From a virus: 20,647 nucleotides of DNA. Position 1 is the stretch's first letter. The number at the start of each line of letters is the position of its first letter. The DNA lies in IMG/VR virus record IMGVR_UViG_3300046011_008436, positions 1 through 20,647 of that record; one strand, 5' to 3'. Positions 1,091 to 16,322 of this stretch are shown one piece after another. The position numbers were made by a program, and so were the translations under genes. The notes below the pieces were generated by a model, which had not been told where the DNA came from, searched no databases, and was given only the letters and a program-made list of their open reading frames with translations.

Positions 1091-1283
1091 GAACAGTTCG
1101 GCCCCACTAAGAGCTTAAGCTTTGAAGCTCTTAAGCTCTTAAGCTCTTAAGCTTTGAAGTTTGAAGTTTTGAAGTTTGAAGTTTGAAGTTTGAAGTTTGA
1201 AGTTTGAAGTTTGAAGTTTGAAGTTTGAAGTTTGAAGTTTGAAGTTTGAAGTTTGAAGTTTGAAGTTTGGGGTCGAACAGTTC
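1091..1283. repeat. 7-bp tandem array (TTTGAAG) with flanking palindromes
   Basis: From 1153 to 1265 the unit TTTGAAG is repeated about 16 times head to tail; the third copy has an extra T (1167-1174), and 13 perfect copies follow. Before it, 1109-1152 holds repeated AAGCTCTT/CTTAAG blocks, including a perfect 8-bp hairpin (1109-1116 with 1125-1132) just after the NAMPT stop. The hyphenated palindrome GAACAGTTC occurs on each side (1091-1099 and 1275-1283). The last unit runs straight into GTTTGGGGT (1265-1273), so the array looks like an expansion of the bases upstream of that motif. No gene is present. Confidence 0.95.
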
Positions 1284-1301
1284 CTCAAATTCTTTTATAA
1301 T
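1265..1301 (+). promoter_or_regulatory. Promoter with GTTTGGGGT motif abutting the -35
   Basis: TATAAT at 1296-1301 with a 17-bp spacer to a weak -35 (TCGAAC, 1273-1278). The motif GTTTGGGGT at 1265-1273 ends on the first base of the -35 box. The same geometry recurs before the genes at 6303 and 7279, and the bases after the -10 (TATTTCTTT..ATGGAGAACG) are also conserved. A transcript starting about seven bases after the -10 would have a short leader carrying GGAG. Confidence 0.75.
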
Positions 1302-1324
1302 TATTTCTTTAAATGGAGAACGAA

Positions 1325-1609
1325 GTGCAAAAACATAGAGACCTAATCATTGCCTGGGCTAATGGTGCTACTATTCAGTATAGAACCGATAATATTTGGT
1401 ACGATGTTCAAGATAATCATCCATCCTGGAGTAACCATACTGAATACCGTATTAAGCCTCAATTTGCTAATATTAAAGCAGTACCGGAAACTTATGGTTG
1501 TGATGGCTGCGTATCTAGCAATCAGACGCGCTGTCACGATTTAATTAAAGGTTTGGTTACACTAGGCCTACCTAAATGTGCAGAAGGTTATATCTATGTC
1601 AAAGTGTGA
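1325..1609 (+). CDS. Small phage protein: IQYR/EYRIKP domain plus four-cysteine module
   Basis: 94 residues. The GTG at 1325 is chosen because GGAG (1315-1318) sits just before it; the ATG at 1313 overlaps that ribosome site and would begin almost at the transcript start. The resulting N-terminus (MQKHRDLIIAWANG) matches the paralogue at 7279 (MKKHKELVIAWLNG). Residues 1-45 form a domain seen in many phages (IIAW..G..IQYR...W.DV...P.W....EYRIKP). Residues 50-94 carry C59, C62, C70 and C85 with LGLPKC..GYIYV, a probable zinc-binding module also found at 5669, 5832 and 7279. Function unknown. First gene of the run that continues to 4056. Confidence 0.8.
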   Translation: MQKHRDLIIAWANGATIQYRTDNIWYDVQDNHPSWSNHTEYRIKPQFANIKAVPETYGCDGCVSSNQTRCHDLIKGLVTLGLPKCAEGYIYVKV

Positions 1610-1784
1610 GCAAGTATTCGTTAAACGGTATGACGATACTATCGAGAAGGTAACGCTTACTGGACGTTGGTACGCGAATTCCAGTGGTAACTTGGGGTTT
1701 GAAGTTAAAACTTACTTCTGGCAAAAGCCTAAGTTTGTTTGGGAGAAAGATATTCGAGAGTTATATGGAGAACTATGTGAATAA
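1596..1784 (+). CDS. Hypothetical phage protein, 62 aa
   Basis: The start at 1596 (MSKCEQVFVKRY) is preferred to 1578, since it overlaps the previous gene by only 14 bases and has AAGG a suitable distance upstream. The protein is short, mixed in charge, with aromatic-rich strands (VTLTGRWYAN, FEVKTYFWQKPKFVWEKD) suggesting a small beta-rich fold. No signal peptide or membrane segment. I do not recognise a family. It overlaps its downstream neighbour as well, so it is probably translated in a coupled series. Confidence 0.6.
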   Translation: MSKCEQVFVKRYDDTIEKVTLTGRWYANSSGNLGFEVKTYFWQKPKFVWEKDIRELYGELCE

Positions 1785-1866
1785 GGATTACTTACCTCTA
1801 GTAATTATGCTAGTTATTGCCTCACTAGTAGTTTTTGGTCCTTTCATTGTTGGAGCACTTTCGTGA
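1777..1866 (+). CDS. Single-span membrane peptide, 29 aa
   Basis: GTG start at 1777 with GGAG at 1767-1770 in the context ATGGAGAACTATGTG, the same arrangement as the start at 1325. The alternative ATG at 1765 would place the start over the ribosome site and add four residues. After MNKDYLP the rest is one hydrophobic helix (LVIMLVIASLVVFGPFIVGAL), so it is a tiny inner-membrane peptide with a short polar N-terminus. It overlaps the previous gene by 8 bases, and its TGA stop overlaps the next GTG start. Role unknown; it is too short to call a holin. Confidence 0.55.
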   Translation: MNKDYLPLVIMLVIASLVVFGPFIVGALS

Positions 1867-2066
1867 TTGTATCGTATAAAATTTCTGATAATGGCAGCAT
1901 CCTAGCAGTAACGTACTCTCAGGGTTTTGTTGGCAAGTTACTTGGCTTTACTCCTGATATTGAGATTTATATCCTTATAGACGATGAGTGGATTAATGCT
2001 GATTCTCCTGGTGAAGAACTTCCTAAACCAATTAAAAACATTCTGAAGCGAGAAAACCTACTATGA
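1863..2066 (+). CDS. Hypothetical phage protein, 67 aa
   Basis: Starts at GTG 1863, overlapping the previous stop (GTGA), with GGAG seven bases upstream. The sequence alternates hydrophobic and polar residues (MIVSYKISDNGSILAVTY, IEIYILIDDEWIN), as in a small beta-sheet protein, and ends in a basic tail (KNILKRENLL). No recognised family. Its last bases overlap the ATG of the next gene. Confidence 0.65.
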   Translation: MIVSYKISDNGSILAVTYSQGFVGKLLGFTPDIEIYILIDDEWINADSPGEELPKPIKNILKRENLL

Positions 2067-2284
2067 AAACCTTTCCTACTTTCGGCAAACTAGAAACTGC
2101 TAAGCCTTGCATGAAGCGTCCTATCGTAGTTCATGCAGCTCAAATTGATGAAGAATTTCGCGTTGAGTCCCTAGAAGGAAACTACGCTATTGGTAAGCCT
2201 GGTGACTACCTAATGACAGGTGCTCAAGGTGAGCAGTATATCTGCGATAAAACTATCTTTGAGGCTACCTATGACTTCGTGTAA
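2063..2284 (+). CDS. Small phage protein with PGDYL/GEQY motif, 73 aa
   Basis: ATG at 2063 overlaps the previous stop. The C-terminal half has the pattern IGKPGDYLMTGAQGEQY followed by F...Y (IFEATYDFV), which recurs in small proteins of many tailed phages and in which a GDY turn precedes a G..GE.Y strand. The role of that family is not known to me. The N-terminal segment (KRPIVVHAAQIDEEFRVESLEGNYA) also fits the family. The ribosome site is weak, so translation is probably coupled to the upstream gene. Confidence 0.7.
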   Translation: MKTFPTFGKLETAKPCMKRPIVVHAAQIDEEFRVESLEGNYAIGKPGDYLMTGAQGEQYICDKTIFEATYDFV

Positions 2285-2579
2285 TAAAGAACTAATCCTA
2301 GAATTTCTAGAAGTACAGAATCTAGTTAGTGCTAGAGAGCAAGCGATTAATAGTGCGCTAGTTCTACTAAATCCAGATAATACGATTTTGGGTATTGTTC
2401 CGAACGAGGTAGACAACCTACTTTGGAAACTATTAACCCAAATTATCGGAGAGGATAAAGCTGACTGGCTACAGTGGTGGTTATACGAAGCAGAGCAAAA
2501 GCCTTCTGTGACTTGGAAAGATGGTGAGAAACTTCCTATTAACAACTTTGAAGACCTCTGGGAGAACTGGCTGAAATGA
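2271..2579 (+). CDS. Hypothetical phage protein, 102 aa
   Basis: The start at ATG 2271 (MTSCNKELILEF) is chosen because GAGG lies six bases before it and it overlaps the preceding gene by only 14 bases; 2220 would overlap by 65. Mainly helical (EFLEVQNLVSAREQAINSALVLL) with a Trp-rich C-terminal half (DWLQWWLYEAEQKPSVTWKDGEKLP ... FEDLWENWLK is split here by polar residues). A similar small phage protein type exists, but I cannot name a function. Stop and next start overlap as ATGA. Confidence 0.65.
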   Translation: MTSCNKELILEFLEVQNLVSAREQAINSALVLLNPDNTILGIVPNEVDNLLWKLLTQIIGEDKADWLQWWLYEAEQKPSVTWKDGEKLPINNFEDLWENWLK

Positions 2580-2701
2580 CAAGCAAAGAATTTATTGAAG
2601 CACTAGAAGAAATTATTAACGATGCATACCTAGTACCTGAGATTAAGTACCAGTTACTAGTAGAAGCTATACAGGAAATGCAGGAGTACCTCCTTGATTA
2701 A
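2576..2701 (+). CDS. Very small acidic helical protein, 41 aa
   Basis: ATG 2576 overlaps the TGA of the preceding gene (ATGA). It is read MTSKEFIEALEEIINDAY and continues to a TAA at 2699-2701, overlapping the thyX start by eight bases. Acidic, probably two helices, no cysteines. CTA/TTA leucines match neighbouring core genes, and it exactly fills the space between two genes, which supports it being real. Its last codons contain the AGGAG ribosome site of thyX, so translation of the two is probably coupled. Confidence 0.55.
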   Translation: MTSKEFIEALEEIINDAYLVPEIKYQLLVEAIQEMQEYLLD

Positions 2702-3497: not shown

Positions 3498-3856
3498 TGC
3501 AGCTTATGAGAGTTGAAGCGGACTATAGCGCAAACTATGCGTCGTATAATACTGAAGTATTACTAAGGGCTACAACTGAAGAGGTAAACTTACTATTTGA
3601 CCTTCTAAAGGCACGAAAGGAAGTCTCCCTGGTAGAGAAGCAGCCTGTAGAGAACCTAGCACAAAAGCTGCGTAAGTCTCAGTATGAGAAGTTCTGTACG
3701 AAGGCACTAAAACTTATAGAAGCTCAGGTAGAGTCTTTCTCTTCTACCTTCGCAGTCTACGATAAACTCCTTCAACAGTATGTTGACGTCTTCTTTACTA
3801 GTAGGGGTTTCAGAGTTTCTCAGGTTAGAGACCATGAAGCAAAGGTGAGCTGGTAA
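3497..3856 (+). CDS. Hypothetical phage protein, 119 aa
   Basis: ATG overlaps the thyX stop (TAATG), with GGAG eight bases before. Helical: segments VLLRATTEEVNLLFDLLKARKEVSL and LAQKLRKSQYEKFCTKALKLIEAQV.. are amphipathic and partly coiled-coil-like, one cysteine, no membrane segment. Position directly after thyX suggests nucleotide metabolism or a general early function, but nothing in the sequence shows it. No family recognised. Confidence 0.7.
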   Translation: MQLMRVEADYSANYASYNTEVLLRATTEEVNLLFDLLKARKEVSLVEKQPVENLAQKLRKSQYEKFCTKALKLIEAQVESFSSTFAVYDKLLQQYVDVFFTSRGFRVSQVRDHEAKVSW

Positions 3857-4056
3857 TGCTAGGAAGCGTAGTATTTATCGTAGCACTAACACTATCTAGT
3901 GGTGAACACTATCAAGTGCCTACTCAATTCTTTGACAACCAAGTTCAGTGTATGGATGCAGCTATGACCCTAAGCTACACATACCGTAGAGCTGACCTAA
4001 AGAGCTATAGTTTGAAGTGTCTAAAGACTGTACCTGAAGTCGAAGAGAAAGAGTAA
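3856..4056 (+). CDS. Small protein with hydrophobic N-terminus, 66 aa
   Basis: ATG overlaps the previous stop (TAATG); AGGTGAG precedes it. Residues 1-14 (MLGSVVFIVALTLS) are hydrophobic but have no basic start, so this may be a membrane anchor or a weak signal sequence. The rest contains two cysteines (C32 and C54 region) that could form a disulfide if exported, and ends in a charged EVEEKE tail. Similar short proteins are common in phages; function unknown. Last gene of the run starting at 1325. Confidence 0.65.
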   Translation: MLGSVVFIVALTLSSGEHYQVPTQFFDNQVQCMDAAMTLSYTYRRADLKSYSLKCLKTVPEVEEKE

Positions 4057-4103
4057 AGTAACCTCTACAACCCCAAACTGCAATAACCTCTAAAGGATAT
4101 GAT

Positions 4104-4400
4104 ATGGGAATGCGACCTGAACTACTTCTAGTACTAGAGTTTGATGACTCTATGGAAAGTATAGTTGACTTGTTTAAGATGGAAGATGAGGAAGATATTT
4201 ATCTAGACCTTCCTAATAGTAATTGGTACACTAATAGTAGTAACCTAGAAATTTCTAGGAATTACTTAGCATTCGGTGTATTCTACGGTTGGGGTGAGGA
4301 ACACGACCCCAAACAGTTAACCATAGCACTTAAAGATGCTAACTTCCTAGCAGAGTTCCTAACTAATCCTAGAGTCTACTGTACAATGAACTTCTGTTAA
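4104..4400 (+). CDS. Hypothetical acidic phage protein, 98 aa
   Basis: ATG 4104 with AAAGGA seven bases before. The upstream gap (4057-4103) has two copies of AACCTCTA and one reverse-strand ACCCCAAAC (4070-4078). The product is acidic (MEDEEDIYLDLPN), aromatic-rich, and ends in VYCTMNFC. An ACCCCAAAC also occurs inside the gene (4306-4314). No recognised domain. It is followed at once by a strong terminator, so it ends the first transcription unit. Confidence 0.65.
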   Translation: MGMRPELLLVLEFDDSMESIVDLFKMEDEEDIYLDLPNSNWYTNSSNLEISRNYLAFGVFYGWGEEHDPKQLTIALKDANFLAEFLTNPRVYCTMNFC

Positions 4401-4403
4401 CCC

Positions 4404-4446
4404 AAAGCCTCAAGCCTACGAAATAATGGGCTTGAGGCTTTACTTA
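4404..4446 (+). terminator. Rho-independent terminator
   Basis: Perfect 13-bp stem, AAAGCCTCAAGCC (4404-4416) with GGCTTGAGGCTTT (4429-4441), 12-base loop, then ACTTATT. The A/T ends make it usable on either strand. It closes the 1325-4400 block. Confidence 0.85.
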
Positions 4447-4459
4447 TTAAAAAGTACAC

Positions 4460-4489
4460 TTGATTTTTATACCTAGCGTGTCGTATAAT
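4460..4489 (+). promoter_or_regulatory. Promoter of the HNH endonuclease
   Basis: TTGATT (4460-4465), 18-bp spacer, TATAAT (4484-4489). The -35 context CTTGATTTTTAT resembles the promoters at 12327, 16294 and 19055. Predicted transcript start is near 4496, at the left arm of the folded leader. Confidence 0.75.
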
Positions 4490-4494
4490 AAGTT

Positions 4495-4592
4495 TGTGAG
4501 CTAAAAGAATTTATATAGTTAAGGGCGAAAAGGGTAGCTCCCCTGGTCAACTCACAGACCTAGCCCAGGTATTACGACACAGTGAGGTGTCT
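4495..4592 (+). other. Structured 5' leader, possible pseudoknot
   Basis: About 100 bases between promoter and start codon with several pairings: TGTGAG (4495-4500) with CTCACA (4551-4556); CCTGG (4542-4546) with CCAGG (4565-4569); GGGC (4523-4526) with GCCC (4563-4566); GACAC..GTGTC (4576-4580 region) enclosing the start-proximal GAGG. The first two cross, since CTCACA lies inside the second hairpin's loop, so a pseudoknot is possible. It is not a tRNA (no T arm). It could control translation or be a relic of a group I intron; the flanking genes do not look split. Confidence 0.4.
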
Positions 4593-4595
4593 TAA

Positions 4596-5315
4596 ATGAT
4601 AGAAGAAATTTATACTGCTCTAGTTGAGCAGTTTGGGGTTGGAGTAGTATTCTTACCTAAGTATAGAAAGAATAGAGTTAAGGACATAACTTGGCTAGAG
4701 TTTATCGAAGCTGCTTTAGAAATAAGTACAGAAGAGCTATATAAGTATTGTGGTTACTCTGAGGCTACTAATTTTAGTAGAGGTTTAAGGCAAGCATACC
4801 CACATATAATAAAAGAAAAAGGTGGTAGACCTTGGAGATTATATCTCCCTACACTAGTACATAAGAGGCACTGCTGTTCCTGTGGTAGGTTGCTAGAGTA
4901 TATTAATTTTAGTCCAGATAGTACAAAGAAAGATGGTTTACACTCTGAATGTAAATCCTGTAAGTTAGAGTATTACAAAGGTAACAAAAACCATATTTTA
5001 GATAGACAGAGATACTACCGGCAAGCTAATACTGAACTTATTAAAGAGAGGCATAAAGAGTACTATAGTAATAACAAGTACCTATTTAATGCAAGAAATG
5101 CTAAGCGTAGAGCAACTAAACTACAGGCGACCCCAAATTGGGCAAACCTCATAACTATAAAACAAATTTATGAAACGTGCCCTTCTGGGTACCATGTAGA
5201 CCATATAGTTCCGTTACAGCATGACTTAGTGTGTGGACTTCATTGTGAATTTAATCTTCAACATTTAACAGCTAAAGAAAACTTAAGTAAAGGTAATAAA
5301 TTTGAGGTAGATTGA
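4596..5315 (+). CDS. HNH homing-type endonuclease with zinc-binding region
   Basis: 239 residues. N-terminal 1-90 unrecognised, helical. A treble-type zinc region follows: C93-x2-C96 ... C119-x2-C122 with the NFSPDSTKKDGLHSECKSC spacing seen in many phage HNH proteins. A basic linker (about 130-172) precedes the HNH core: H200-V-D-H203-I-V-P-L, then N220-L-Q-H-L and E-N229..KGN, the metal and catalytic residues of the family. It cuts double-stranded DNA. It stands alone, with its own promoter, leader and terminator, as expected for a free-standing homing endonuclease inserted between phage genes. Its A/T-rich codons use more TTA and fewer CTA than neighbours. One GTTTGGGGT falls inside the coding sequence (4631-4639). 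Confidence 0.92.
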   Translation: MIEEIYTALVEQFGVGVVFLPKYRKNRVKDITWLEFIEAALEISTEELYKYCGYSEATNFSRGLRQAYPHIIKEKGGRPWRLYLPTLVHKRHCCSCGRLLEYINFSPDSTKKDGLHSECKSCKLEYYKGNKNHILDRQRYYRQANTELIKERHKEYYSNNKYLFNARNAKRRATKLQATPNWANLITIKQIYETCPSGYHVDHIVPLQHDLVCGLHCEFNLQHLTAKENLSKGNKFEVD

Positions 5316-5328
5316 GGTAGACTTAGAT

Positions 5329-5363
5329 AAGCCCTGGGATTCTTTAGGATTCTAGGGCTTTTG
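5329..5363 (+). terminator. Rho-independent terminator after the HNH gene
   Basis: AAGCCCT (5329-5335) pairs with AGGGCTT (5354-5360), 18-base loop that is itself partly repetitive (GGATTCTTTAGGATTCT), followed by TTTT. Confidence 0.75.
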
Positions 5364-5387
5364 CATTACTACGCTATAATTTTAAGC

Positions 5388-5416
5388 TTACTTTACCTAC
5401 TTAATTACTTTATAAT
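5388..5416 (+). promoter_or_regulatory. Promoter before the 5448 gene
   Basis: TATAAT at 5411-5416, 17 bp from a weak -35 (TTACTT, 5388-5393). The stretch TATAATTACTTTATTG is nearly identical to that at 6274-6289. No GTTTGGGGT motif lies upstream here. A second TATAAT (5375-5380) is also present. Confidence 0.6.
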
Positions 5417-5447
5417 TACTTTATTGGTATAGCTTATAGGAACAAAA

Positions 5448-5672
5448 GTGGAAAGCATTCTGGTTGATGGTAGGAAGTATAAGTACCGTATAGTTAAAGA
5501 AGGCGGTATGTTCAAGTGGTTTATTATAGTGTATGAAGGTGGTTTTAATTACTACATTCCTATCACTCTCGATAATGATTATTTATATAATAAATATGGG
5601 GATAGTCCTGGTGGCCAAGCAGAGGTTGCTGAAAAGATTAAAGACTATTTCGCTGAGGAGCATTACATATGA
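5448..5672 (+). CDS. Hypothetical phage protein, 74 aa
   Basis: GTG start with AGGA (5438-5441) upstream. Tyrosine-rich, probably beta then helix: VDGRKYKYRIVKEGG, WFIIVYEGGFNYYIPITL, then an acidic helix (GGQAEVAEKIKDYFAEEHYI). No family recognised. Its TGA overlaps the ATG of the next gene (ATGA). First of a four-gene set to 6228. Confidence 0.65.
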   Translation: MESILVDGRKYKYRIVKEGGMFKWFIIVYEGGFNYYIPITLDNDYLYNKYGDSPGGQAEVAEKIKDYFAEEHYI

Positions 5673-5839
5673 TTAAGATTACTGTTGTTGCTAAACCTGT
5701 CGAAACTATCACTTGTACTGGGTGTCTTAGAGAGCTCTATCCTGGTTGTTCAAATGAGGATGTTGATTTCCTAGTAAATCTAGGACTACCTAGCTGTCAT
5801 GACGGTTATATTTACATCCTGGAGAAGAAAGATGATTAA
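5669..5839 (+). CDS. Four-cysteine module protein, copy 1 (56 aa)
   Basis: ATG 5669 overlaps the preceding stop. MIKITVVAKP, then C16-T-G-C19, C27, and LGLPSC43..GYIYILEKKDD. It is a close paralogue of the next gene and matches the C-terminal halves of the 1325 and 7279 products. Four regularly spaced cysteines in a cytoplasmic protein suggest one bound zinc ion. Function unknown. Confidence 0.7.
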   Translation: MIKITVVAKPVETITCTGCLRELYPGCSNEDVDFLVNLGLPSCHDGYIYILEKKDD

Positions 5840-6029
5840 AACTGTAAATATTGTAGCAAAGCCTTCTGGTAGGAATAGCTGTGGAGGCTGCCTCCTGATG
5901 GGTATTGGCTGCTCATCTATGGTTGGTGACCACTTTGAAGACCCTAGGGTTGATTTCGTTTTCAGTCTAGGACTTCCTGATTGTGTTCTAGGGTACATTT
6001 ACGTTTTGGAGAAGAAAGATGAAGTTTAA
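5832..6029 (+). CDS. Four-cysteine module protein, copy 2 (65 aa)
   Basis: ATG 5832 (MIKTVNIVAKP) is chosen over an earlier ATG at 5799 because it overlaps the previous stop by a few bases and makes the protein align end to end with the upstream paralogue. C17-G-G-C20, C27 and C51 in LGLPDC..GYIYVLEKKDE. About nine residues are inserted between the third and fourth cysteines compared with copy 1. The repeated GGAGAAGAAAGATGA end of both genes shows tandem duplication. Confidence 0.7.
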   Translation: MIKTVNIVAKPSGRNSCGGCLLMGIGCSSMVGDHFEDPRVDFVFSLGLPDCVLGYIYVLEKKDEV

Positions 6030-6228
6030 GATTTACATTATCAATGAGGCTGGAGAGCAGGTTAGGTATAAACCTAATAAAGGAGAAATGCTAGTAATGA
6101 ACTCTCAAGGGGTTTACTTTGTTTATAACAACGAACCATTCTACCCCTCTATTACTAGACTATACGATAAGATTGGGAACTATATAGTAGTTTGGGAGAA
6201 AGAAAAGCTACTTGAGGTTCTTAAATAG
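6019..6228 (+). CDS. Hypothetical phage protein, 69 aa
   Basis: ATG 6019 overlaps the previous gene by 11 bases; GGAGAAGAAAG is its ribosome site. Beta-rich (FKIYIINEAGEQVRYKP, VYFVYNNEPFYPSI, GNYIVVWEKEKLLEVLK), with no cysteine or membrane segment. No family recognised. Last gene before the promoter at 6243-6279. Confidence 0.6.
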   Translation: MKFKIYIINEAGEQVRYKPNKGEMLVMNSQGVYFVYNNEPFYPSITRLYDKIGNYIVVWEKEKLLEVLK

Positions 6229-6242
6229 TTTCAACCTCTAAA

Positions 6243-6279
6243 GTTTGGGGTCGAATGCTTTAACGAAATACTCTATAAT
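6243..6279 (+). promoter_or_regulatory. Promoter with GTTTGGGGT motif abutting the -35
   Basis: GTTTGGGGT 6243-6251, -35 TCGAAT 6251-6256, 17-bp spacer, TATAAT 6274-6279. Same geometry and the same AATGGAGAACG leader as at 1265-1301 and 7219-7255. AACCTCTAAA just before the motif also occurs at 4083 and 7195. Confidence 0.75.
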
Positions 6280-6302
6280 TACTTTATTGAATGGAGAACG
6301 AA

Positions 6303-6587
6303 ATGGAATTCCTTAAACTACTTATTAAAGACTTGAAAGATACTTTCACTGGTAACTCTCCCAAAGTACCTGAAAAAACTTATGCTGAAATGGTTAGGGA
6401 GATTCATGTTCAACGGTTCTGTGAAGGTTTGCTACTCAGCATTGAATACGATAAGTCTGGTGATATGCAGCGTGATGTTCGTATTGAGGATGCATCTTTA
6501 CGAGAGCGGACAATTAATTTTCTAAATGAAAAGGGTTTTATTGTCAAAGTATTTCATGCTTCTAAAACTATTCAAGTTAAATGGTGA
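6303..6587 (+). CDS. Hypothetical phage protein, 94 aa
   Basis: ATG 6303 preferred over 6291, because the GGAG at 6292-6295 is the ribosome site (context ATGGAGAACGAAATG). N-terminal amphipathic helix (MEFLKLLIKDLKDTF), then a charged middle and a small alpha/beta C-terminus (ERTINFLNEKGFIVKVFHASKTIQVKW) that resembles small phage proteins handling sliding or peptide binding, but this is not diagnostic. Function unknown. Its stop overlaps the region of the next start. Confidence 0.65.
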   Translation: MEFLKLLIKDLKDTFTGNSPKVPEKTYAEMVREIHVQRFCEGLLLSIEYDKSGDMQRDVRIEDASLRERTINFLNEKGFIVKVFHASKTIQVKW

Positions 6588-6592
6588 AACCA

Positions 6593-6967
6593 ATGCTATA
6601 TTTAATTCGCGGTGTGCCCGGTTCTGGTAAGTCTACAAAGGCTAGAGAACTACTAGAACAAGGGCTAGCTACTGTTCATCTAGAAGCTGATATGTATTTT
6701 GAAGATGAAGAAGGTAACTATAAGTTTGAGCCTACTAAGATTGGTAGAGCACATAGCTGGTGTTTGTACCTTACTAGAAAGCACTTAGAAGAAGGGCACA
6801 ACGTAGTTGTCTCTAATACCTTTATTAAGCGTTGGGAACTAGCTAAGTATGTTGCACTAGGATTTCCTTATGAGATCATTGAGTGTAAAGGTAGCTACGA
6901 GAGTGTACACGGTGTTCCGGCTGAAGTTGTTGCTAGAATGAAAGCTAACTATCAAGAGCTTGAGTAA
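6593..6967 (+). CDS. P-loop kinase, polynucleotide 5'-kinase-like (AAA_33/N4BP2 type)
   Basis: 124 residues from ATG 6593 (MLYLIRGVPGSGKST); 6581 would add four residues with a poorer ribosome site. Walker A is G7-VPGSGK-S14-T15. Then come LEADMYF (acceptor-side acidic residue), AHSWC, VVVSNTF (paired with the DTN/NTF segment of these kinases), a basic lid region (KRWELAKYVALGF) and HGVPAEVVARMKANY, which matches the VP..V..M tail of T4 polynucleotide kinase and N4BP2-type kinases. Likely transfers phosphate from ATP to a nucleic-acid 5' end, but substrate is inferred. No HAD phosphatase domain. An RNA ligase gene lies 1 kb downstream. Confidence 0.8.
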   Translation: MLYLIRGVPGSGKSTKARELLEQGLATVHLEADMYFEDEEGNYKFEPTKIGRAHSWCLYLTRKHLEEGHNVVVSNTFIKRWELAKYVALGFPYEIIECKGSYESVHGVPAEVVARMKANYQELE

Positions 6968-7003
6968 CACTTTCTACAATTAACACTTTCTACAATTTGG
7001 GGT
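6965..7003. repeat. 16-bp tandem duplication ending in the TTTGGGGT motif
   Basis: TAACACTTTCTACAAT occurs at 6965-6980 and 6981-6996, then runs into ATTTGGGGT (6995-7003), a one-base variant of the motif. The duplicated part is again the sequence just upstream of the G-run. Confidence 0.9.
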
Positions 7004-7008
7004 AAGAG

Positions 7009-10714: not shown

Positions 10715-10715
10715 C

Positions 10716-10743
10716 AAAAAAGCCGCTAAATAGCGGCTTTTTG
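10716..10743. terminator. Perfect 12-bp terminator, possibly bidirectional
   Basis: AAAAAGCCGCTA and TAGCGGCTTTTT form a perfect stem with a tiny loop two bases after the stop of the 9824 gene; A-run on one side and T-run on the other allow use in both directions. Confidence 0.92.
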
Positions 10744-10775
10744 CATTTTAGAGGCTTTTCTGTGCAAAAACAGCG

Positions 10776-10901
10776 CAAATTGACCCCAAACTGTAGAAAT
10801 CGGACAAATTGACCCCAAACTGTAGAAATCGAGGGAAAACAGCTAGTAAACCGCAGAAATCGGGACATTTCATAGGTTTTATAATCTTTCCAGTTTGGGG
10901 T
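10776..10901. repeat. 29-bp-spaced direct repeats carrying the motif
   Basis: A 27-bp unit, CAAATTGACCCCAAACTGTA then GAAATCG, occurs at 10776-10802 and 10805-10831. A third partial copy (AAACCGCAGAAATCGG) ends near 10863. They contain reverse motif copies 10783-10791 and 10812-10820. A forward copy lies at 10893-10901, just before the promoter at 10921. A TATAAT at 10880-10885 has no good -35. Confidence 0.9.
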
Positions 10902-10920: not shown

Positions 10921-10950
10921 TTGACAATTATTGCTGTGGAGATGTATAAT
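10921..10950 (+). promoter_or_regulatory. Near-consensus promoter, twin of 12327-12356
   Basis: TTGACA (10921-10926), 18 bp, TATAAT (10945-10950), the best sigma70-like match in the window. GTGGAGA.GTATAAT.GGCGC is shared with the promoter at 12327. It points toward the 3' ends of minus-strand genes and reaches a terminator within 90 bases, so it should make a short RNA (about 10957-11040) rather than express a protein. Confidence 0.8.
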
Positions 10951-10964
10951 AGGCGCCGAGTCAA

Positions 10965-11040
10965 AATTTGCGTTTTACGATTTGCGTTTTACGGTTTACG
11001 ATTTGCGTTTTACACTTTTCGTAAAACGCAAAAATTTTTA
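10965..11040 (+). repeat. Ten 7-bp units ending in a terminator hairpin
   Basis: Sequence falls into heptamers: AATTTGC, GTTTTAC, GATTTGC, GTTTTAC, GGTTTAC, GATTTGC, GTTTTAC, ACTTTTC, GTAAAAC, GCAAAAA (10965-11034). The last units give a perfect 12-bp hairpin, TTTGCGTTTTAC (11002-11013) with GTAAAACGCAAA (11021-11032), followed by AATTTTT. It therefore also acts as a terminator for the short RNA from 10921. TTTACACTTTTCGTAAA (11009-11025) recurs at 12168-12184. Confidence 0.85.
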
Positions 11041-11042: not shown

Positions 11043-11501
11043 TCAAGACACTTTCTTAGGTTCGAAGTTCTCCTCTAGCCTATTGTACACCCAGGCTATC
11101 CACTTCTCAGCCATTAGGTAGTCCTTGTCACAGATATTCGGAGCAAACTTAACTCTATAGTATATCTCTAGTAGCGCTGAAAGGTCCGCTAAGGTTTTAT
11201 TTGGTTTCCTGTGACTCCACGCGTAAGATTCATCGTCATTTACCAGTAAAGCTTGAGCAGTTACTCCAACTGGTACTACCACCTTTTTAGGTTCCTCATC
11301 CTTCTTTTCCTCAGGGAATGGATCCTTACTCAAATACTGTTTGTATAATAAAGTATCCTTTAAAGCCTGTTTAGACTTACCTTTACCCTTAACATGATAT
11401 CTAACACTACCTTCGCTAACACCTAAAGCTATAGATATCTCTGCCCAAGTGAATCCATCATCTCTAGCTCTTACTGCAAACTCTTTTGCCTTGTCATCCA
11501 T
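11043..11501 (-). CDS. Helix-turn-helix protein, 152 aa (paralogue of 11552-12118)
   Basis: Start at 11501 with AGGAG nine bases upstream in the same leader as its paralogue (AGGAG..ATTAAGAATG). Residues 4-39 (EFAVRARDDGFTWAEISIAL GVSEGSVRYHVKG, split by a normal turn) form a helix-turn-helix like those of resolvase or terminase small subunits. A Lys/Glu linker with LLYKQYLSKDPFPEEKK follows, then an all-helical C-terminal domain (LSALLEIYYRVKFAP...YNRLEE) similar to the paralogue's. Likely a DNA-binding regulator that oligomerises through the C-terminal part. Candidate binder of GTTTGGGGT, inferred only. Second in a minus-strand pair. Confidence 0.75.
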   Translation of the reverse strand: MDDKAKEFAVRARDDGFTWAEISIALGVSEGSVRYHVKGKGKSKQALKDTLLYKQYLSKDPFPEEKKDEEPKKVVVPVGVTAQALLVNDDESYAWSHRKPNKTLADLSALLEIYYRVKFAPNICDKDYLMAEKWIAWVYNRLEENFEPKKVS

Positions 11502-11551: not shown

Positions 11552-12118
11552 TTATACTTGTTGCTTACGTTGCAGATATTCGTGTAACAATACGTACACT
11601 AGTTTAATTCTGCTATCAGCCATTTCTTGCTCAACATCAGTAACTAAAGGATTAAACCTAACGTTAAGTAAGAGTGCTAAAAATTCTCCTATCAATTTCC
11701 TAGTACTATTAGGGGTTAACTCCTTCAACAGGTCTACTTCAGATTCAGTTAATAGGTTTACGACCTTAGGAAGAGACTGCTCTTCCTTGCTTTTACTAGT
11801 AGGCAAAGACTCTTTGCTCAGACATTGCTTATATAAGTCTCTATCCTTTAAAGCCTCCTTCAACAGGTCTACTTCAGATTCAGTTAGTAGGTTTACAACC
11901 TTAGGAATAGACTCCTCTTCCTTGCTTTTACTAGTAGGGAACTGCTCTTCGCTTAGGTACTGCTTGTATAACTCACTATCTTTAAAAGCTGGCTTTATTA
12001 CACCTTTGACGTAGTATTTTAGTGTACCTTCTGGAATACTTAAAGTTTGTGCAATATCTCCCCAAGAGTACCCTTGTATCCTAGCCGTCGCTACAAGCTG
12101 TTTAGTTCTACTTTCCAT
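11552..12118 (-). CDS. Helix-turn-helix protein with internal duplication, 188 aa
   Basis: Start at 12118 with AGGAG upstream. Residues 6-40 (KQLVATARIQGYSWGDIAQT LSIPEGTLKYYVKG) are a helix-turn-helix matching the downstream paralogue. The middle is an in-frame tandem duplication of about 47 residues: the unit runs from KDSELYKQYLSEEQFPTSKS to VVNLLTESEVDLLKEAL and is repeated as KDRDLYKQCLSKESLPTSKS to VVNLLTESEVDLLKEL. The paralogue has one copy of LYKQYLSK. The C-terminal helical domain (LALLLNVRFNPLVTD...LVYVLLHEYLQRK) aligns with the paralogue. The DNA repeat is nearly exact, so the duplication is recent. First gene of the pair, transcribed from the motif-containing promoter at 12195-12223. 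Confidence 0.78.
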   Translation of the reverse strand: MESRTKQLVATARIQGYSWGDIAQTLSIPEGTLKYYVKGVIKPAFKDSELYKQYLSEEQFPTSKSKEEESIPKVVNLLTESEVDLLKEALKDRDLYKQCLSKESLPTSKSKEEQSLPKVVNLLTESEVDLLKELTPNSTRKLIGEFLALLLNVRFNPLVTDVEQEMADSRIKLVYVLLHEYLQRKQQV

Positions 12119-12194: not shown

Positions 12195-12223
12195 ATTTTA
12201 CCCCAAACCGCTAACCTGTTCAA
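12195..12223 (-). promoter_or_regulatory. Minus-strand promoter with the motif inside the spacer
   Basis: Read on the minus strand: TTGAAC (12223-12218), 17 bp, TAAAAT (12200-12195). GTTTGGGGT (12208-12200) fills the spacer end and shares the -10's first T, exactly as at 9703-9731. Drives the helix-turn-helix pair, with a leader of about 70 bases containing the heptamers. Further motif copies at 12236-12244 (reverse), 12305-12313 (forward) and a variant at 12270. Confidence 0.65.
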
Positions 12224-12326
12224 CCTCAGATTTTTACCCCAAACCGCGGAAATTAGGTTAGTCGCTTAAGTTTGGGTGTTGCGGGGACTGCTACAGTTAG
12301 TTCAGTTTGGGGTCAGGAATCTGGCC

Positions 12327-12356
12327 TTGATTTTACATGATGTGGAGAAGTATAAT
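12327..12356 (+). promoter_or_regulatory. Strong promoter, twin of 10921-10950
   Basis: TTGATT (12327-12332), 18 bp, TATAAT (12351-12356), with GTGGAGAAGTATAATTGGCGC matching the 10921 promoter. Motif copy 12305-12313 lies just upstream. It is divergent from the minus-strand promoter and faces a long region without a recognisable gene. Confidence 0.75.
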
Positions 12357-12390
12357 TGGCGCAGACTAGTACTAGAAACGAATTTTGAGG

Positions 12391-12540
12391 TTGACTCGGT
12401 TTCGTACTGGCGGGCGCAGAGATAATACTGATGTTGTTTCGATTTTGCACTAGGGCGCGTAGATAATTTTGCGCTTGTTTCACTTTTTCACTGGGGCGCG
12501 TGGCAAGCTTAAAATTGTTTCGTCGATTTACTACTCAGGC
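12391..12540. repeat. Four degenerate direct repeats of about 40 bp
   Basis: The unit has TTGTTTC, then about 10 bases, CACT.GGGCGCG and (in two copies) TAGATAAT. TTTC ends at 12403, 12440, 12481 and 12521 (spacing 37, 41, 40). Copies differ by many bases. It lies between the promoter and the 9-bp array and marks the start of the compositionally different module. No gene. Confidence 0.65.
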
Positions 12541-12573
12541 GCGGCGAAGCCGCGCTGGCCCGGAGGGCCAAAC

Positions 12574-12735
12574 GTCAAAAACGTCAAAAACGTCAAAAAC
12601 GTCAAAAACGTCAAAAACGTCAAAAACGTCAAAAACGTCAAAAACGTCAAAAACGTCAAAAACGTCAAAAACGCCAAAAACGTCAAAAACGTCAAAAACG
12701 TCAAAAACGCCAAAAACATCAAAAACATCAAAAAC
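12574..12735. repeat. 9-bp tandem array, 18 copies
   Basis: GTCAAAAAC repeated 18 times without gaps; copies at 12673 and 12709 read GCC, and the last two (12718, 12727) read ATC. Because the period is a multiple of three, several frames stay open through it on both strands, giving low-complexity reading frames that I regard as artefacts. The preceding GCGCGGCGAAGCCGCGC (about 12540-12555) is a hairpin. Confidence 0.95.
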
Positions 12736-13437
12736 ATGGATGCGAATGATTCTCACTAACTTCCTGGAAAACAACAAATCCACATTGTCTCACGCCGGCG
12801 GTAGGCTTGTCAATAACTCTAGAGGGTTATTTACAAAAAACTTTTTTCGTGGTAGCCATAAGAAAAACTTATAGCCATATAAAAAAATTTCATAGGCCGG
12901 CCTGGTGGATAGTATTTTTCTAGTGCTGTCAAATAAAATTTTTCTATAGCAAAAAACGCTTGTAAGTCCTTGATTCTAAAGGGATTTCCTAGAATCGACG
13001 TTCTAGTGCTGTCCTATGTCCTACCATCAGGAAACGGGAAAACGCCTTAAAACGCCTTAAAACGCCTTAAAACGGCATGTGCGAAAAAACAACACTTTTT
13101 TGCAGGAAGTTTGACTGTTAGCGTTTTTCGTGCTAGTGAAAAATCGCGGTTGACTACCTGCCAAATATCGTGCTATTCGTGTGTATGAAAAATAATTGTT
13201 GCGCTTGGCCGGATAGTGTGTTATCGCGTACACGTCTAAAGACTAAAAAGAGGCCGAAAAGAAAAAAGCCTTTAAAATCAAGGACTTAAAAATTTTTCAA
13301 AATATCTTCAAAATTTTTTCAAAACCGCTTGACGGTGTTAGTAGGAGTCTGGATAATTCATCCCATCGAAACAGCAACAGCAAGGCCAGGCCGGAAGGCC
13401 ACCGGGATAATTTTGTCCTCATTGATTGGAGTTTGAA
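12736..13437. other. Gene-free stretch with repeats and inverted repeats, origin-like
   Basis: No supported gene in 700 bases. Contents: direct repeat TTCTAGTGCTGTC at 12918-12930 and 13001-13013; inverted repeat GATTCTA..TAGAATC (12972-12995); AAGTCCTTGATT (12964-12975) repeated inverted at 13276-13287, extending to 17 of 18 bases; three tandem copies of AACGCCTTAA (13041-13070); hairpin GCG.TTTTC/GAAAA.CGC near 13120-13147; TTGACT at 13150 without a good -10; a T/A-rich run with three TTTTTCAAAA-like blocks (13289-13325). Short iterons plus an A/T-rich block would suit a replication origin, but no DnaA box is apparent. Confidence 0.5.
13329..13357 (+). promoter_or_regulatory. Promoter before the 13438 gene
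   Basis: TTGACG (13329-13334), 17 bp, GATAAT (13352-13357). AAAACCGCTTG in front is shared with the promoter at 15921 (AAAAACCGCTTG), so both belong to the same module style. Confidence 0.6.
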
Positions 13438-13635
13438 ATGATTGAAGTAATGGTTAATGGTAAATGGTTTGCAGTTCGTCAATCTTGCGGGATTTACCAG
13501 AAAATGATCTACGTAGAGTCTGGACACGGCATTTATTCCGGTTTTGATGAACTGTCCAGTATTCAAGGTTGGAAATTGGATGGGGAAATATCCAATCATG
13601 AAACTTGTAAAAAATTGCTTGAATTCAATTGGTGA
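13438..13635 (+). CDS. Hypothetical protein, 65 aa
   Basis: ATG 13438 with TTGGAG eight bases upstream; an in-frame TTG at 13426 is part of that ribosome site. MIEVMVNGKWFAVRQSCGIY, then YVESGHGIYSGFDELSSIQGWKL and NHETCKKLLEFNW. Small, mixed alpha/beta, two cysteines. Leucine is TTG/CTT/CTG rather than CTA. No family recognised. First gene of the module. Confidence 0.65.
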   Translation: MIEVMVNGKWFAVRQSCGIYQKMIYVESGHGIYSGFDELSSIQGWKLDGEISNHETCKKLLEFNW

Positions 13636-13646
13636 ATTAATCAGTT

Positions 13647-13712
13647 ATTCCGGCTTATTAATTAGGCCGGAATGGCGGATTAGATTCTAATCCGATTCCC
13701 GTTTTTAAATCT
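13647..13712 (+). terminator. Two hairpins after the 13438 gene
   Basis: ATTCCGGC (13647-13654) with GCCGGAAT (13666-13673), then GGATTAG (13677-13683) with CTAATCC (13687-13693), followed by CCGTTTTTAAATC. The second, with the T-run, may terminate transcription. Confidence 0.6.
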
Positions 13713-13727
13713 TTTGGAGTAAATAGC

Positions 13728-14150
13728 ATGGCCGAATCTAGCAAAAAACCTGCAAATTGGACCGCAGAACAGACTATCGCACTGGTTGCCGCATGGGATG
13801 CCGTGGGCCGCGATAACAAGCGAATTGACGAAGTAGCGGCAAAGATGAGGCGGACTCCTGCGTCCTGTCGCATGAAGCTTGTTCGGGAAGGCTTGTATCA
13901 AAAAGCGGAAAATCTGACAAAAACGGGGGAAAGCGTAATTTCCCGCGAGGAATTGGCTGATTCTATCGCCGCCTATCTGCCCGATACCGTTTCTGATGAC
14001 GTTAGCAGCCTCGCCAGGACGAATAAGCGAATTCTCAAAGCAATCAAAAAATTGCTGGATGAAAACGCTCAATTCCGGAAAGCGGCAATGGAATCTTTCG
14101 AGACTGACGCGGAAACCGTGGAAACGGAAAACCCGGAATTGGCTGATTAA
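13728..14150 (+). CDS. Myb/SANT-like DNA-binding protein, 140 aa
   Basis: ATG 13728 with TTGGAGTAAATAGC in front, the same leader as the 15420 gene. Residues 11-58 (NWTAEQTIALVAAWDAVG, then IDEVAAKMRRTPASCRMKL) form a Myb/SANT-like three-helix domain, with the Trp and RT..SC.MKL recognition helix typical of such phage and bacterial proteins. Then a helical region (REELADSIAAYLPD, LARTNKRILKAIKKLLDENAQFRKA) that may form a coiled coil, and an acidic tail (DAETVETENPELAD). Probably a dimeric regulator of this module. The codon use (GCC, CGC, TTG) differs from core genes. A terminator follows 8 bases after the stop. Confidence 0.75.
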   Translation: MAESSKKPANWTAEQTIALVAAWDAVGRDNKRIDEVAAKMRRTPASCRMKLVREGLYQKAENLTKTGESVISREELADSIAAYLPDTVSDDVSSLARTNKRILKAIKKLLDENAQFRKAAMESFETDAETVETENPELAD

Positions 14151-14157
14151 TTAATCC

Positions 14158-14184
14158 ACGCCGGGGCAATTCCCGGCGTTTTAG
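14158..14184 (+). terminator. Rho-independent terminator
   Basis: ACGCCGGG (14158-14165) pairs with CCCGGCGT (14172-14179), 6-base loop, followed by TTTTA. Just after the Myb-like gene. Confidence 0.85.
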
Positions 14185-14193
14185 GAAATCAAA

Positions 14194-14274
14194 ATGCGCT
14201 TATCAGTATTTGTGGCGATTGTTTCGTGTCTTAGTTTTATCACGGCATTAATCAATTTTTTCTGTAAAGGTTAA
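14194..14274 (+). CDS. Membrane peptide, 26 aa
   Basis: ATG 14194 with AGGA nine bases before. MRLSVFVAIVSCLSFITALI then NFFCKG: one hydrophobic span with a basic first residue, two cysteines, consistent with a small inner-membrane peptide or lipoprotein-like leader. It ends three bases before the next start, whose ribosome site (AAAGG) lies in its last codons. Role unknown. Confidence 0.45.
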   Translation: MRLSVFVAIVSCLSFITALINFFCKG

Positions 14275-14277
14275 CCA

Positions 14278-14541
14278 ATGGAAATCTTGCCATACTTAGG
14301 AATTATGCTATTGACTGCCGGAAGTGTAGGCATTCGAGTTGCGCAGCAATTAAACGTAACCCGTGGATACTTTATTAGGGCATTCTTTACAAGTTACGTG
14401 TTCACGGCATTTGATGCCTTAGTCGTTGGAGTGTATGCAAAGTTAATGCTAGACGGCGACTATATCAAATTGATATTCGCCGGTACTGGTTCCGCATTAG
14501 GTGGACTAATTGCAATGTTTTTTTATAGGAAATCGAAATAA
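14278..14541 (+). CDS. Integral membrane protein, 87 aa
   Basis: ATG 14278 with AAAGG upstream. Three probable spans: 5-18 (PYLGIMLLTAGSVG), about 34-56 (RAFFTSYVFTAFDALVVGVYA) and 63-82 (YIKLIFAGTGSALGGLIAMFF), ending in a basic tail (YRKSK). Size and topology would fit a holin-like protein, but no lysin is next to it and I do not recognise the family. Its stop overlaps the exonuclease ATG (TAATG), so the two are translated together. Confidence 0.7.
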   Translation: MEILPYLGIMLLTAGSVGIRVAQQLNVTRGYFIRAFFTSYVFTAFDALVVGVYAKLMLDGDYIKLIFAGTGSALGGLIAMFFYRKSK

Positions 14542-15245
14542 TGGCAAAGAAGGCATGGTATTTGCTGGTTGATACCGAGACTACCCTATCGGGGCGCGTG
14601 GTTGATTTTGGCGCCATTATCGTTGATAGAAATGGGGAAATTCATAAAAGAATCGCCGTATTAATCAAGGGCATTTTCGGCGTGGAAGAATTGTTTTTTG
14701 ATGTTAATTCCAAAGACGAAATTTGGACAAAACGCGGATTGGAGAAACGGAATCAGAATTACGTGGAACATTTGAATAATGGAACACGAATGCTTGCGAG
14801 TGTATCGGCCATTAATAAATGGCTTATGCAAGCAATGATAACTTATTCTCCAAGTGTAACCGCTTTCAATCTTGCTTTTGACAAAGACAAATGCCAAAAA
14901 ACCGGAATTGACTTGTCCATCTTTACCGATCAATTCTGTTTATGGCACGCCGCTATCGGTCACTTTGGGAGCACGAAAGCCTTTCGAGCGTTTGTTTTGG
15001 ATAATCATTGTATTAATCCGCCCACGGAATTGCGCAATTGCACGTATCAAACTAACGCGGAAGTAATGGCGTCTTTTCTTTCCGGTGGCATGTTGCCCCC
15101 GGAGCCACATACATCTATCGAGGATTGTATTGATTATGAATTGCCGATTTTGAGAGCCATTCTCAAGCGCAAAAAATGGCGTGAAAAAATCAAACCTTAT
15201 AACTGGCGGGATTATCAATTGCGTCATGGGTTTATCGCCAAGTAG
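14541..15245 (+). CDS. DEDDh 3'-5' exonuclease (DnaQ-like)
   Basis: 234 residues. ExoI motif VD11-T-E13-T; ExoII N110-LAF-D114; ExoIII H190 followed by D195 (PHTSIEDCIDYE), i.e. the DEDDh acidic set plus general-base His that bind two metals and remove nucleotides from 3' ends. Core length is normal for a stand-alone exonuclease; the C-terminal tail is basic (KRKKWREKIKPYNWRDYQLR), useful for nucleic-acid binding. Substrate (DNA or RNA) cannot be told. Leucine is mainly TTG, unlike core phage genes. The TAG stop is inside the first unit of the 10-bp array. Confidence 0.85.
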   Translation: MAKKAWYLLVDTETTLSGRVVDFGAIIVDRNGEIHKRIAVLIKGIFGVEELFFDVNSKDEIWTKRGLEKRNQNYVEHLNNGTRMLASVSAINKWLMQAMITYSPSVTAFNLAFDKDKCQKTGIDLSIFTDQFCLWHAAIGHFGSTKAFRAFVLDNHCINPPTELRNCTYQTNAEVMASFLSGGMLPPEPHTSIEDCIDYELPILRAILKRKKWREKIKPYNWRDYQLRHGFIAK

Positions 15246-15391
15246 CACCCCGTAGCACCCCGTAGCACCCCGTAGCACCCCGTAGCACCCCGTAGCACCC
15301 CGTAGCACCCCGTAGCACCCCGTAGCACCCCGTAGCACCCCGTAGCACCCCGTAGCACCCCGTAGCACCCCGTAGCACCCCGTAGCACCCC
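15242..15391. repeat. 10-bp tandem array (GTAGCACCCC), 15 perfect copies
   Basis: Begins at the exonuclease stop codon and runs to 15391 without a visible mismatch. Low-complexity reading frames on the minus strand across it (repeating GATGCYGVLR) are probably artefacts. It separates the exonuclease from the 15420 gene. Confidence 0.97.
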
Positions 15392-15419
15392 CGTTTTTCA
15401 ATTTTTTGGAGCAAATAGC

Positions 15420-15704
15420 ATGAACAAGCAACTTTTTGAGATGCACAATGATTGCAAGGTTTATCATTTTCCCGTGTACGGTGTAACCGTAGCAATCAAG
15501 GAAGCGTGTAAGAACGGCGACTTTCTACACTTTGCCATCGCACAATGCAGCAATGGCGATACCTACAGCAAAAAACGCGGAAAACAAGCGGTAATTGCCG
15601 CGTGGAATTGTGGGGAAGTGTTAGCCATCAGAAAGGGAAAACTGCAAAGCATGAAAAAACACGCGAAAAGTATCGCGGCATTTTTCGGCAATGGGACGAA
15701 GTGA
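15420..15704 (+). CDS. Hypothetical basic protein, 94 aa
   Basis: ATG 15420 with TTGGAGCAAATAGC, matching the leader at 13713-13727. MNKQLFEMHNDCKVYHFPVY, a beta-rich start, then LHFAIAQCSNGDTYSKKRGKQAV and a strongly basic C-terminus (IRKGKLQSMKKHAKSIAAFF). Four cysteines in all. Likely binds nucleic acid given its charge, but this is weak. No family recognised. Confidence 0.65.
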   Translation: MNKQLFEMHNDCKVYHFPVYGVTVAIKEACKNGDFLHFAIAQCSNGDTYSKKRGKQAVIAAWNCGEVLAIRKGKLQSMKKHAKSIAAFFGNGTK

Positions 15705-15716
15705 TTAACTAACCGG

Positions 15717-15745
15717 AATTCGCCCACTTATTAGGTGGGCGAATT
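15717..15745. terminator. Perfect 11-bp hairpin after the 15420 gene
   Basis: AATTCGCCCAC (15717-15727) with GTGGGCGAATT (15735-15745), 7-base loop; followed by AATAAAATG rather than a T-run, so termination is uncertain. Confidence 0.6.
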
Positions 15746-15751
15746 AATAAA

Positions 15752-15910
15752 ATGACAGTCGCCGAATTGATTGAAGTATTGCAAAGCGAGCCTATAGACT
15801 CACAAGTCTATTTTATAATTACTAACTCCGAAGGCACTACGGAAAAGTTAGCAGATATTGATATAATCCATTTTGAGGACAATACTACCGCTTTTTATTT
15901 ATACAGGTAG
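15752..15910 (+). CDS. Small protein of the MTVxELIExL type, 52 aa
   Basis: ATG 15752 just after the hairpin; the ribosome site is poor. MTVAELIEVLQSEPIDSQVY followed by FIITNSEGTTEKLADIDIIH and FEDNTTAFYLYR. The opening (MTV.ELIE.LQ..P.D..V) and the strand pattern match short proteins common in phages and mobile elements; their function is unknown. Previously easy to miss because of length. Confidence 0.6.
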   Translation: MTVAELIEVLQSEPIDSQVYFIITNSEGTTEKLADIDIIHFEDNTTAFYLYR

Positions 15911-15920
15911 AAAAAACCGC

Positions 15921-15961
15921 TTGCAAAGTGTACGGAAAGCCCAATAGAATATCGGCTTTCC
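15921..15961 (+). promoter_or_regulatory. Promoter with operator-like inverted repeat
   Basis: TTGCAA (15921-15926), 18 bp, TAGAAT (15945-15950), preceded by AAAAACCGC as at 13321. A perfect inverted repeat, GGAAAGCC (15934-15941) and GGCTTTCC (15954-15961), brackets the -10, as a repressor site would. It could instead be a hairpin ending the 15752 transcript. Confidence 0.45.
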
Positions 15962-15978
15962 AATACAGGATGAATGAG

Positions 15979-16080
15979 ATGAAAAAAATACTTGCTTTTT
16001 CCGAATATCAGCGGATTAATTTTTACAAAACCCGTCGGGTATCTTTTTATCAAATTTTAATCGACGTAATTTTCCGGTAA
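15979..16080 (+). CDS. Possible basic peptide, 33 aa
   Basis: ATG 15979 with AGGA eight bases upstream (an in-frame ATG at 15970 overlaps it). MKKILAFSEYQRINFYKTRR then VSFYQILIDVIFR. Basic and aromatic. Sits behind the 15921 promoter, which supports it. No known family. Confidence 0.4.
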   Translation: MKKILAFSEYQRINFYKTRRVSFYQILIDVIFR

Positions 16081-16088
16081 AAAATACT

Positions 16089-16128
16089 TGACAAAATCGC
16101 GGAAACCCGCTACACCGCGATTTTGTCA
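16089..16128. repeat. Perfect 13-bp inverted repeat near the module's right edge
   Basis: TGACAAAATCGCG (16089-16101) and CGCGATTTTGTCA (16116-16128), 14-base loop, then GTTGTTTC. Could be a terminator, operator or recombination site. From here to 16247 I see no gene; GCGCGCGG at about 16200-16206 is locally GC-rich. Confidence 0.7.
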
Positions 16129-16247
16129 GTTGTTTCACTTTTATCACTTCCGGGGGCGGTTATCAGACTTTTCATTTTGCATAGACGTATCGCACACCCG
16201 CGCGCGGTAAATTAGAAATTTTCTAGAAAGAGATTATAAGTGTGCTG

Positions 16248-16322
16248 ACCCCAAACTGTAAATATTGTTAGTTTGTTCTAGTTAAAAATAGGCTTGATTT
16301 TATATTCGTATTATTGTAGAAT
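16248..16322 (+). promoter_or_regulatory. Packaging-module promoter with upstream motif
   Basis: Reverse motif ACCCCAAAC (16248-16256), then TTGATT (16294-16299), 17 bp, TAGAAT (16317-16322). GGCTTGATTTTATA matches the promoters at 19055 and 12327. Core-style sequence resumes around 16215 (TTTCTAGAAAG). Confidence 0.7.

Follow-up and report, generated by a model that had tools for sequence, protein, structure and literature searches.

The DNA stretch analysed here, 20,647 nucleotides of the IMG/VR virus record IMGVR_UViG_3300046011_008436 (designated the window), carries 21 exact copies of the 9-bp motif GTTTGGGGT, 11 in forward and 10 in reverse orientation. The window also encodes the terminase small subunit (terS, 16361-16807, plus strand, family match), terL (17751) and a portal protein (19502), which assign it to the distant T5-like phages. 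The block from 12.4 to 16.2 kb, which includes an A2-like gene, lies by synteny where T5 has its terminal repeat with the pre-early genes. A near-complete relative of 114,128 bp (G1), together with a 33.7-kb fragment that joins the G1 ends, was used for comparison. The interval from 12360 to 16240 was confirmed to be free of the motif. A chimeric contig was considered as an explanation for the motif-free 12.4-16.2 kb and rejected, because G1 has the same gene order there at 90-93% identity.

The motif occurred far above chance expectation, as 100 shuffled versions of the window had a mean of 0.13 copies and a maximum of 2. Nineteen of the 21 copies lie outside genes, in the 23% of the window that is non-coding (P ~1e-10), and only four one-mismatch forms were found in this non-coding DNA versus the 19 exact copies. 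All 21 coordinates and strands given in an initial annotation of the window were exact, and its count of 19 copies outside genes was borne out. The two remaining copies are probably coding coincidences. One lies within the open reading frame (ORF) 4104-4400 (4306-4314, minus strand), and the other lies within the HNH gene 4596-5315 (4631-4639, plus strand), where it encodes QFGV, a stretch that is conserved in this homing-endonuclease family and repeated by paralogues in G1.

Non-coding copies in the plus-strand early block are in mixed orientation (8 forward and 4 reverse). Among them are copies between the ORFs ending at 4056 and starting at 4104 (4070-4078, minus), immediately upstream of an RNA ligase gene (site 7913-7921, plus; gene 7929-8708) and downstream of the same gene (8745-8753, minus), and as a pair within a 1-kb non-coding region (8932 and 8974; 8932-8982, plus). 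A further copy (9132-9140, plus) lies 74 bp upstream of a TATAAT at 9215, ahead of a strong RNA hairpin. Clustered copies in the window belong to module A (9605 and 9639; 9605-9647, minus), module B with a 29-bp repeat (10783 and 10812; 10783-10820, minus) and module C (12236-12244, minus).

Base counts per column across the 19 non-coding copies indicated that GTTTGGGGT is the core of an asymmetric site of about 22 bp, RATTTYTNCAGTTTGGGGTCA, which covers about two helical turns. Upstream of the core, the columns read R at -10, A or G at -9, T at -8, -6 and -4, C at -2, and A or G at -1; downstream, the core is followed by C or A and then by A. The wider consensus in the initial annotation was essentially right by these counts. 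The region 3616-10748 is mostly 99.9% identical between the window and G1 and is therefore uninformative on selection. Within the diverged interval at 10.77-10.96 kb, 1 of 27 site columns had changed compared to 53 of 163 other columns (33%; Fisher P = 7e-4), and when three regions were pooled, changes affected 4 of 72 site columns versus 76 of 488 others (P = 0.013). Turnover of whole copies was also observed: the window copies at 10812 and 12236 are each broken by a single base in G1, and the intact G1 copy at 87602 has a broken counterpart at 12271 in the window. Extra G1 copies lie in unalignable sequence and include a whole additional promoter cassette at 86832.

The G1 genome contains 29 copies of GTTTGGGGT, about 7 of which are scattered in ORFs across the genome. 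Of its 22 non-coding copies, 21 fall in the stretch that corresponds to the window, 75.9-91.9 kb (P ~5e-11, allowing for how much of the DNA is non-coding). The motif had been described as phage-wide, which was wrong; because nearly all non-coding copies in G1 are confined to this single 16-kb stretch, the site is a feature of the early region beside the pre-early block.

Three sister phages (terminase large subunit, TerL, 54-60% identical), G18 (100.5 kb), G19 and G20, were found by a search with the exonuclease encoded at 14541-15245. A one-letter variant of the motif, GTTTAGGGTCA or GCTTAGGGTCA, was the top or near-top enriched 9-mer in the fetched loci of these phages. Twenty-nine sister-phage sites read RATTGCTNCRGYTTAGGGTCAG, with the core GYTTAGGGTC and the same RATT..T.CR flanks as in the window, and differ from the window site by a change of G to A at core position 5 and of T to G at position -6. 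The sister sites occupy the same map position as those in the window. Furthermore, each of the five phages compared, whose TerS proteins are 39-44% identical, has one copy that points the opposite way to terS and is located 107-177 bp ahead of it; in the window this copy is found at 16248-16256 (minus), 113 bp upstream of the gene. When viral contigs were scanned with RATTGCTNCRGYTTRGGGTC, 12 stretches on 11 contigs matched, all of which encode relatives of G1 proteins. Scans with GACCCCAAACYGYAGAAA yielded single matches per record only, and a paired-motif scan of viral contigs yielded mostly chance matches, dense only in the known relative. No comparable site set is present in T5 or the G5 group. 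Equal frequency inside genes and lack of conservation in relatives, which the initial annotation had named as findings that would speak against a binding site, were both absent.

The position of the site relative to sigma70 promoters falls into a few spacing classes. Exactly 22 bp separate the end of the core from TATAAT at 1265-1273 (plus, in the -35 zone of an operon starting at about 1313; TATAAT at 1296), 6243-6251 (plus; TATAAT at 6274) and 7219-7227 (plus; TATAAT at 7250), and each of these promoters lacks a good -35 element (P = 5e-5 under the null). A second class, with a spacing of 43 bp, includes the window site at 10893-10901 (plus) and sites at G1 86832, G19 10010 (with TAAAAT), G20 428 and positions 4802 and 8916 of the loci L228 and L233. 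The third class, with a spacing of 37 bp, includes the window site at 12305-12313 (plus), G18 4486, G20 1461, L228 4004 and two L235 promoters; in G18-G20 this class had a null P of 3.5e-4. The promoters of the 37-bp and 43-bp classes carry a -35 element, separated from the core by 13-14 or 19 bp. In the window these are TTGATT-18-TATAAT followed by TGGCGCA (12327-12356, plus), 13 bp downstream of the 12305 site, and TTGACA-18-TATAAT followed by AGGCGCC (10921-10950, plus), 19 bp downstream of the 10893 site. Additional classes of 44 and 46 bp were seen. The spacings of 22, 37, 43 and 46 bp gave no clean multiple of one helical turn.

In two cases the core is embedded in the spacer of a promoter of the form TTGAAN-17-TAAAAT, so that its last T is the first base of the -10 element. 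The copy at 9718-9726 (plus) lies in TTGAAA-17-TAAAAT (9703-9731), the candidate promoter of gene 9824-10714, and the copy at 12200-12208 (minus) lies in TTGAAC-17-TAAAAT (12223-12195), the candidate promoter of gene 11552-12118. The 16248 core upstream of terS also falls within a spacer, here that of a TTTACA-18-TATAAT on the minus strand of the window, the -10 of which is not retained in G1. The possibility that the motif is itself a promoter for a phage RNA polymerase was rejected, given that it occurs in both orientations and is placed beside sigma70 -10 and -35 boxes.

The 10893 site is the first element of a border cassette in which TTGACA-18-TATAAT and AGGCGCC are followed, after about 50 nt, by a terminator hairpin (11002-11032, plus). 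A short untranslated RNA (10951-11035) is predicted at the border because the promoter at 10921 is followed so closely by this hairpin. The layout of the cassette is shared by G19, L228, L233, G18 and the G1 cassette at 86832, and the sequence of the RNA differs. A promoter class of this clade is recognisable by GGCGC after its TATAAT, and a proposed link between GGCGC and the T5 nick sites (NRGCGCN) was dropped because GGCGC follows the -10 of the whole class. Border promoters of this class have the GTTTRGGGT site and lack a palindrome, whereas most pre-early promoters of the class have a palindrome over the -10 and lack the GTTTRGGGT site. The pre-early promoters of G18, G19 and G20 (L219-L227) carry the inverted repeat CAAAATTATN4TATAATTTTGG over the -10, followed by GGCGC, which is probably a second, palindromic operator system. 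A related arrangement was observed in the 97-kb relative G5 (G005, L047), where five perfect palindromes of 18-22 bp, AACATTACAAATTTGTAATGTT, lie at pre-early sigma70 promoters within 72235-75630, and also in L213. The operators in the sister phages and the G5 type resemble the window site in recurring at the clade's sigma70 promoters, but they are palindromic and lie at pre-early promoters.

The reading that best explains these results, to which we assign a probability of roughly 0.6, is that a ~22-bp operator, RATTTYTNCAGTTTGGGGTCA, with GTTTGGGGT as its invariant core, is recognised by a putative phage-encoded, sequence-specific DNA-binding protein that regulates early and border sigma70 promoters. 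From the sequence patterns we infer the binding of a protein, its encoding by the phage (most likely by a member of the A2/D3/D5 family) and the sign of regulation. The site would control host-sigma70 promoters in two places, the early region and the junction of the early genes with the pre-early block. At the three early operons it would replace the -35 region, with the core centre near -39, and where border promoters have a genuine -35, it would lie at about -53 to -59. Core centres near -39 and at -53 to -59 are class II and class I activator positions, respectively, and for this reason activation is the likeliest action at the early and border promoters. The 22-bp promoters may need such help, since they lack a good -35. 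The spacer copies beside genes 9824 and 11552, by contrast, would repress those promoters. Parallels are offered by the MotA boxes of T4 middle promoters and by class I and II activator sites, since in the window, too, a phage-specific element would substitute for a weak -35 and keeps a constant distance to TATAAT. The window site differs in its sequence, its 22-bp spacing between core end and -10, and its multiple allowed positions; MotA relatives were not searched for.

Several observations weigh against this reading. The three 22-bp promoters (1265, 6243 and 7219) are similar downstream and perhaps derive from one ancestral module, so that their P value overstates independence. No clear promoter lies at a standard distance from the copies at 4070, 8745, 8932, 8974, 9605, 9639, 10783 and 10812, and both orientations of the site relative to transcription occur. 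In addition, relatives of D5 and A2 are present in phages that lack the site (T5 and G5). The initial annotation had suggested the binding site of a phage protein that acts on transcription or replication. Its first part is well supported by non-coding enrichment, promoter spacing and conservation in the sister phages, and replication received no specific support.

The proteins proposed in the initial annotation to bind the motif are a 296-residue border protein for which no family was found (9824-10714, plus) and two paralogous helix-turn-helix proteins of 152 and 188 residues (11043-11501, within the cluster, and 11552-12118, both minus). These are not the best candidates, because searches of the site-bearing sister phages revealed no counterparts; all three were detected only in the window and G1. 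No homology was detected between the 9824-10714 product and its positional counterpart T5.018. Structure predictions were too poor for a fold search, with predicted local distance difference test (pLDDT) scores of 36 for the 9824 product and 49 for the 11552 product, the latter consisting only of helices, which is compatible with a helix-turn-helix. The A2-like protein of the pre-early block (13728-14150, plus) matched phrog_1725 (E = 1e-5), as did T5 A2 (E = 4e-52), and a hidden Markov model begun from the window protein joined T5 A2, D3 and D5 in one helix-turn-helix family. This family is present in the window, G1, G5, T5 and the sister phages examined, and several sister phages have A2-like genes outside the pre-early set, inside the site cluster. 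D5 is annotated in T5 as a DNA-binding protein required for late transcription, and it appears to contain several helix-turn-helix domains. By these sequence comparisons, the A2/D3/D5 family is the best candidate for the putative regulator.

A broader and rather speculative proposal is a switch common to the clade, in which an A2/D5-family protein would act on GTTTRGGGT sites to turn on both the border promoters (site, 19 bp, TTGACA-18-TATAAT-GGCGC), with their short terminated RNAs, and the early operons, and would thereby couple second-step DNA transfer to the change from pre-early to early expression. How T5 phages switch among their pre-early, early and late genes with no RNA polymerase other than the sigma70 enzyme of the host is described as unknown (PMC7472727). 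A T5-type switch becomes directly testable because there is a conserved cis site with a 22-bp consensus, defined promoter spacing and matched GGGG and AGGG core variants in related phages; such a site could serve to capture the regulator or be placed in reporter fusions.

Foremost among the rival readings is a purely repressive role, though we consider it unlikely. The sites would then be operators or stoperator-like elongation blocks that silence early genes at later stages of infection, and the protein would bind but never activate. Many asymmetric, near-invariant copies between early genes, two of them in promoter spacers, fit such a role. Stoperators of Cluster A mycobacteriophages are likewise asymmetric, near-invariant short sites in tens of copies, probably with one cognate phage protein, and in related phages both site and protein have drifted (PMC6550527). 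However, stoperators are predominantly in one orientation relative to transcription (PMC6550527), unlike the sites of the early block. The window sites further differ in their fixed promoter spacing and in belonging to a T5-like phage without a recognised immunity repressor; no repressor or integrase was found among the part of the window's proteins that was scanned. The 22-bp promoters without a good -35, which suggest a need for help, also argue against repression alone.

The second rival, which appears improbable, is that the 8.7-12.3 kb clusters delimit the DNA transferred in the first step from that transferred in the second and play a part in stopping, resuming or end formation, and that the copies at promoters are secondary. 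Their map position is that of the T5 injection stop signal (iss), according to the T5 annotation and synteny. According to a 2026 paper, repeats are characteristic of the iss, and its mechanism, like the second step of T5 DNA entry, is poorly understood (PMC13250531). In T5 the top enriched 9-mers derive from ATGTGCAAATCCGACA, clustered at 9753-10480, and the ATGTGCAAATCCGACA array straddles the end of the terminal repeat in T5, IME260 and phiR201. Four to seven exact same-direction copies lie beside the T5.018 gene (AY543070, L049) and in L152-L156. Both elements are non-coding, adjoin the first-transferred block and are among the most enriched words of their own genomes. In contrast, the T5 array is unrelated in sequence, runs in a single direction and is nearly confined to the border, whereas the window sites are also found upstream of terS and, in precise register, at early promoters lying kilobases from the clusters. 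The cluster in the window contains no DnaA boxes: TTATCCACA was absent from the window, and among four relaxed matches only one (10761) lies in the cluster region.

It is very doubtful that the copies are replication iterons for an initiator encoded by gene 9824-10714 or by another protein gene. Direct copies 29-42 bp apart do cluster in AT-rich non-coding DNA around this gene, but searches with the gene gave no family and no counterpart in the site-bearing sister phages, single copies occur at terS and early promoters, and the spacing is keyed to -10 boxes. A neutral or selfish dispersed repeat without function is scarcely credible, even in a region rich in short tandem arrays, one of which abuts the 1265 copy, given that the core is kept amid diverged flanks, the position and orientation upstream of terS are constant, and the sister phages share a correlated one-letter change.

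The tandem arrays lie in non-coding DNA of the window at 1150-1270, 12570-12735 and 15240-15390, with the units GAAGTTT, CAAAAACGT and CGTAGCACCC; the array at 1150-1270 is the one next to the 1265 site and has one unit different in G1. The long RNA hairpin that follows the TATAAT at 9215 spans 9236-9330 (region -53 kcal/mol, z = -6.4), and a search of Rfam gave no family above its gathering score. No tblastn match to T5 A1 was obtained in the 114-kb G1 or in G5, and a family search was also empty, with its controls equally silent. The putative pre-early block (13000-16000) has 0-3 CTAG per kb compared to about 7-21 in most of the remaining DNA, and is rich in AATTC/GAATT. Finally, at least eight HNH (endonuclease VII-like) paralogues, which are probably homing endonucleases, were observed in G1 at 43-100 kb and in the window at 4596-5315, and several of them have an N-terminal EQFGV/FLPKRGKKRP stretch in common.

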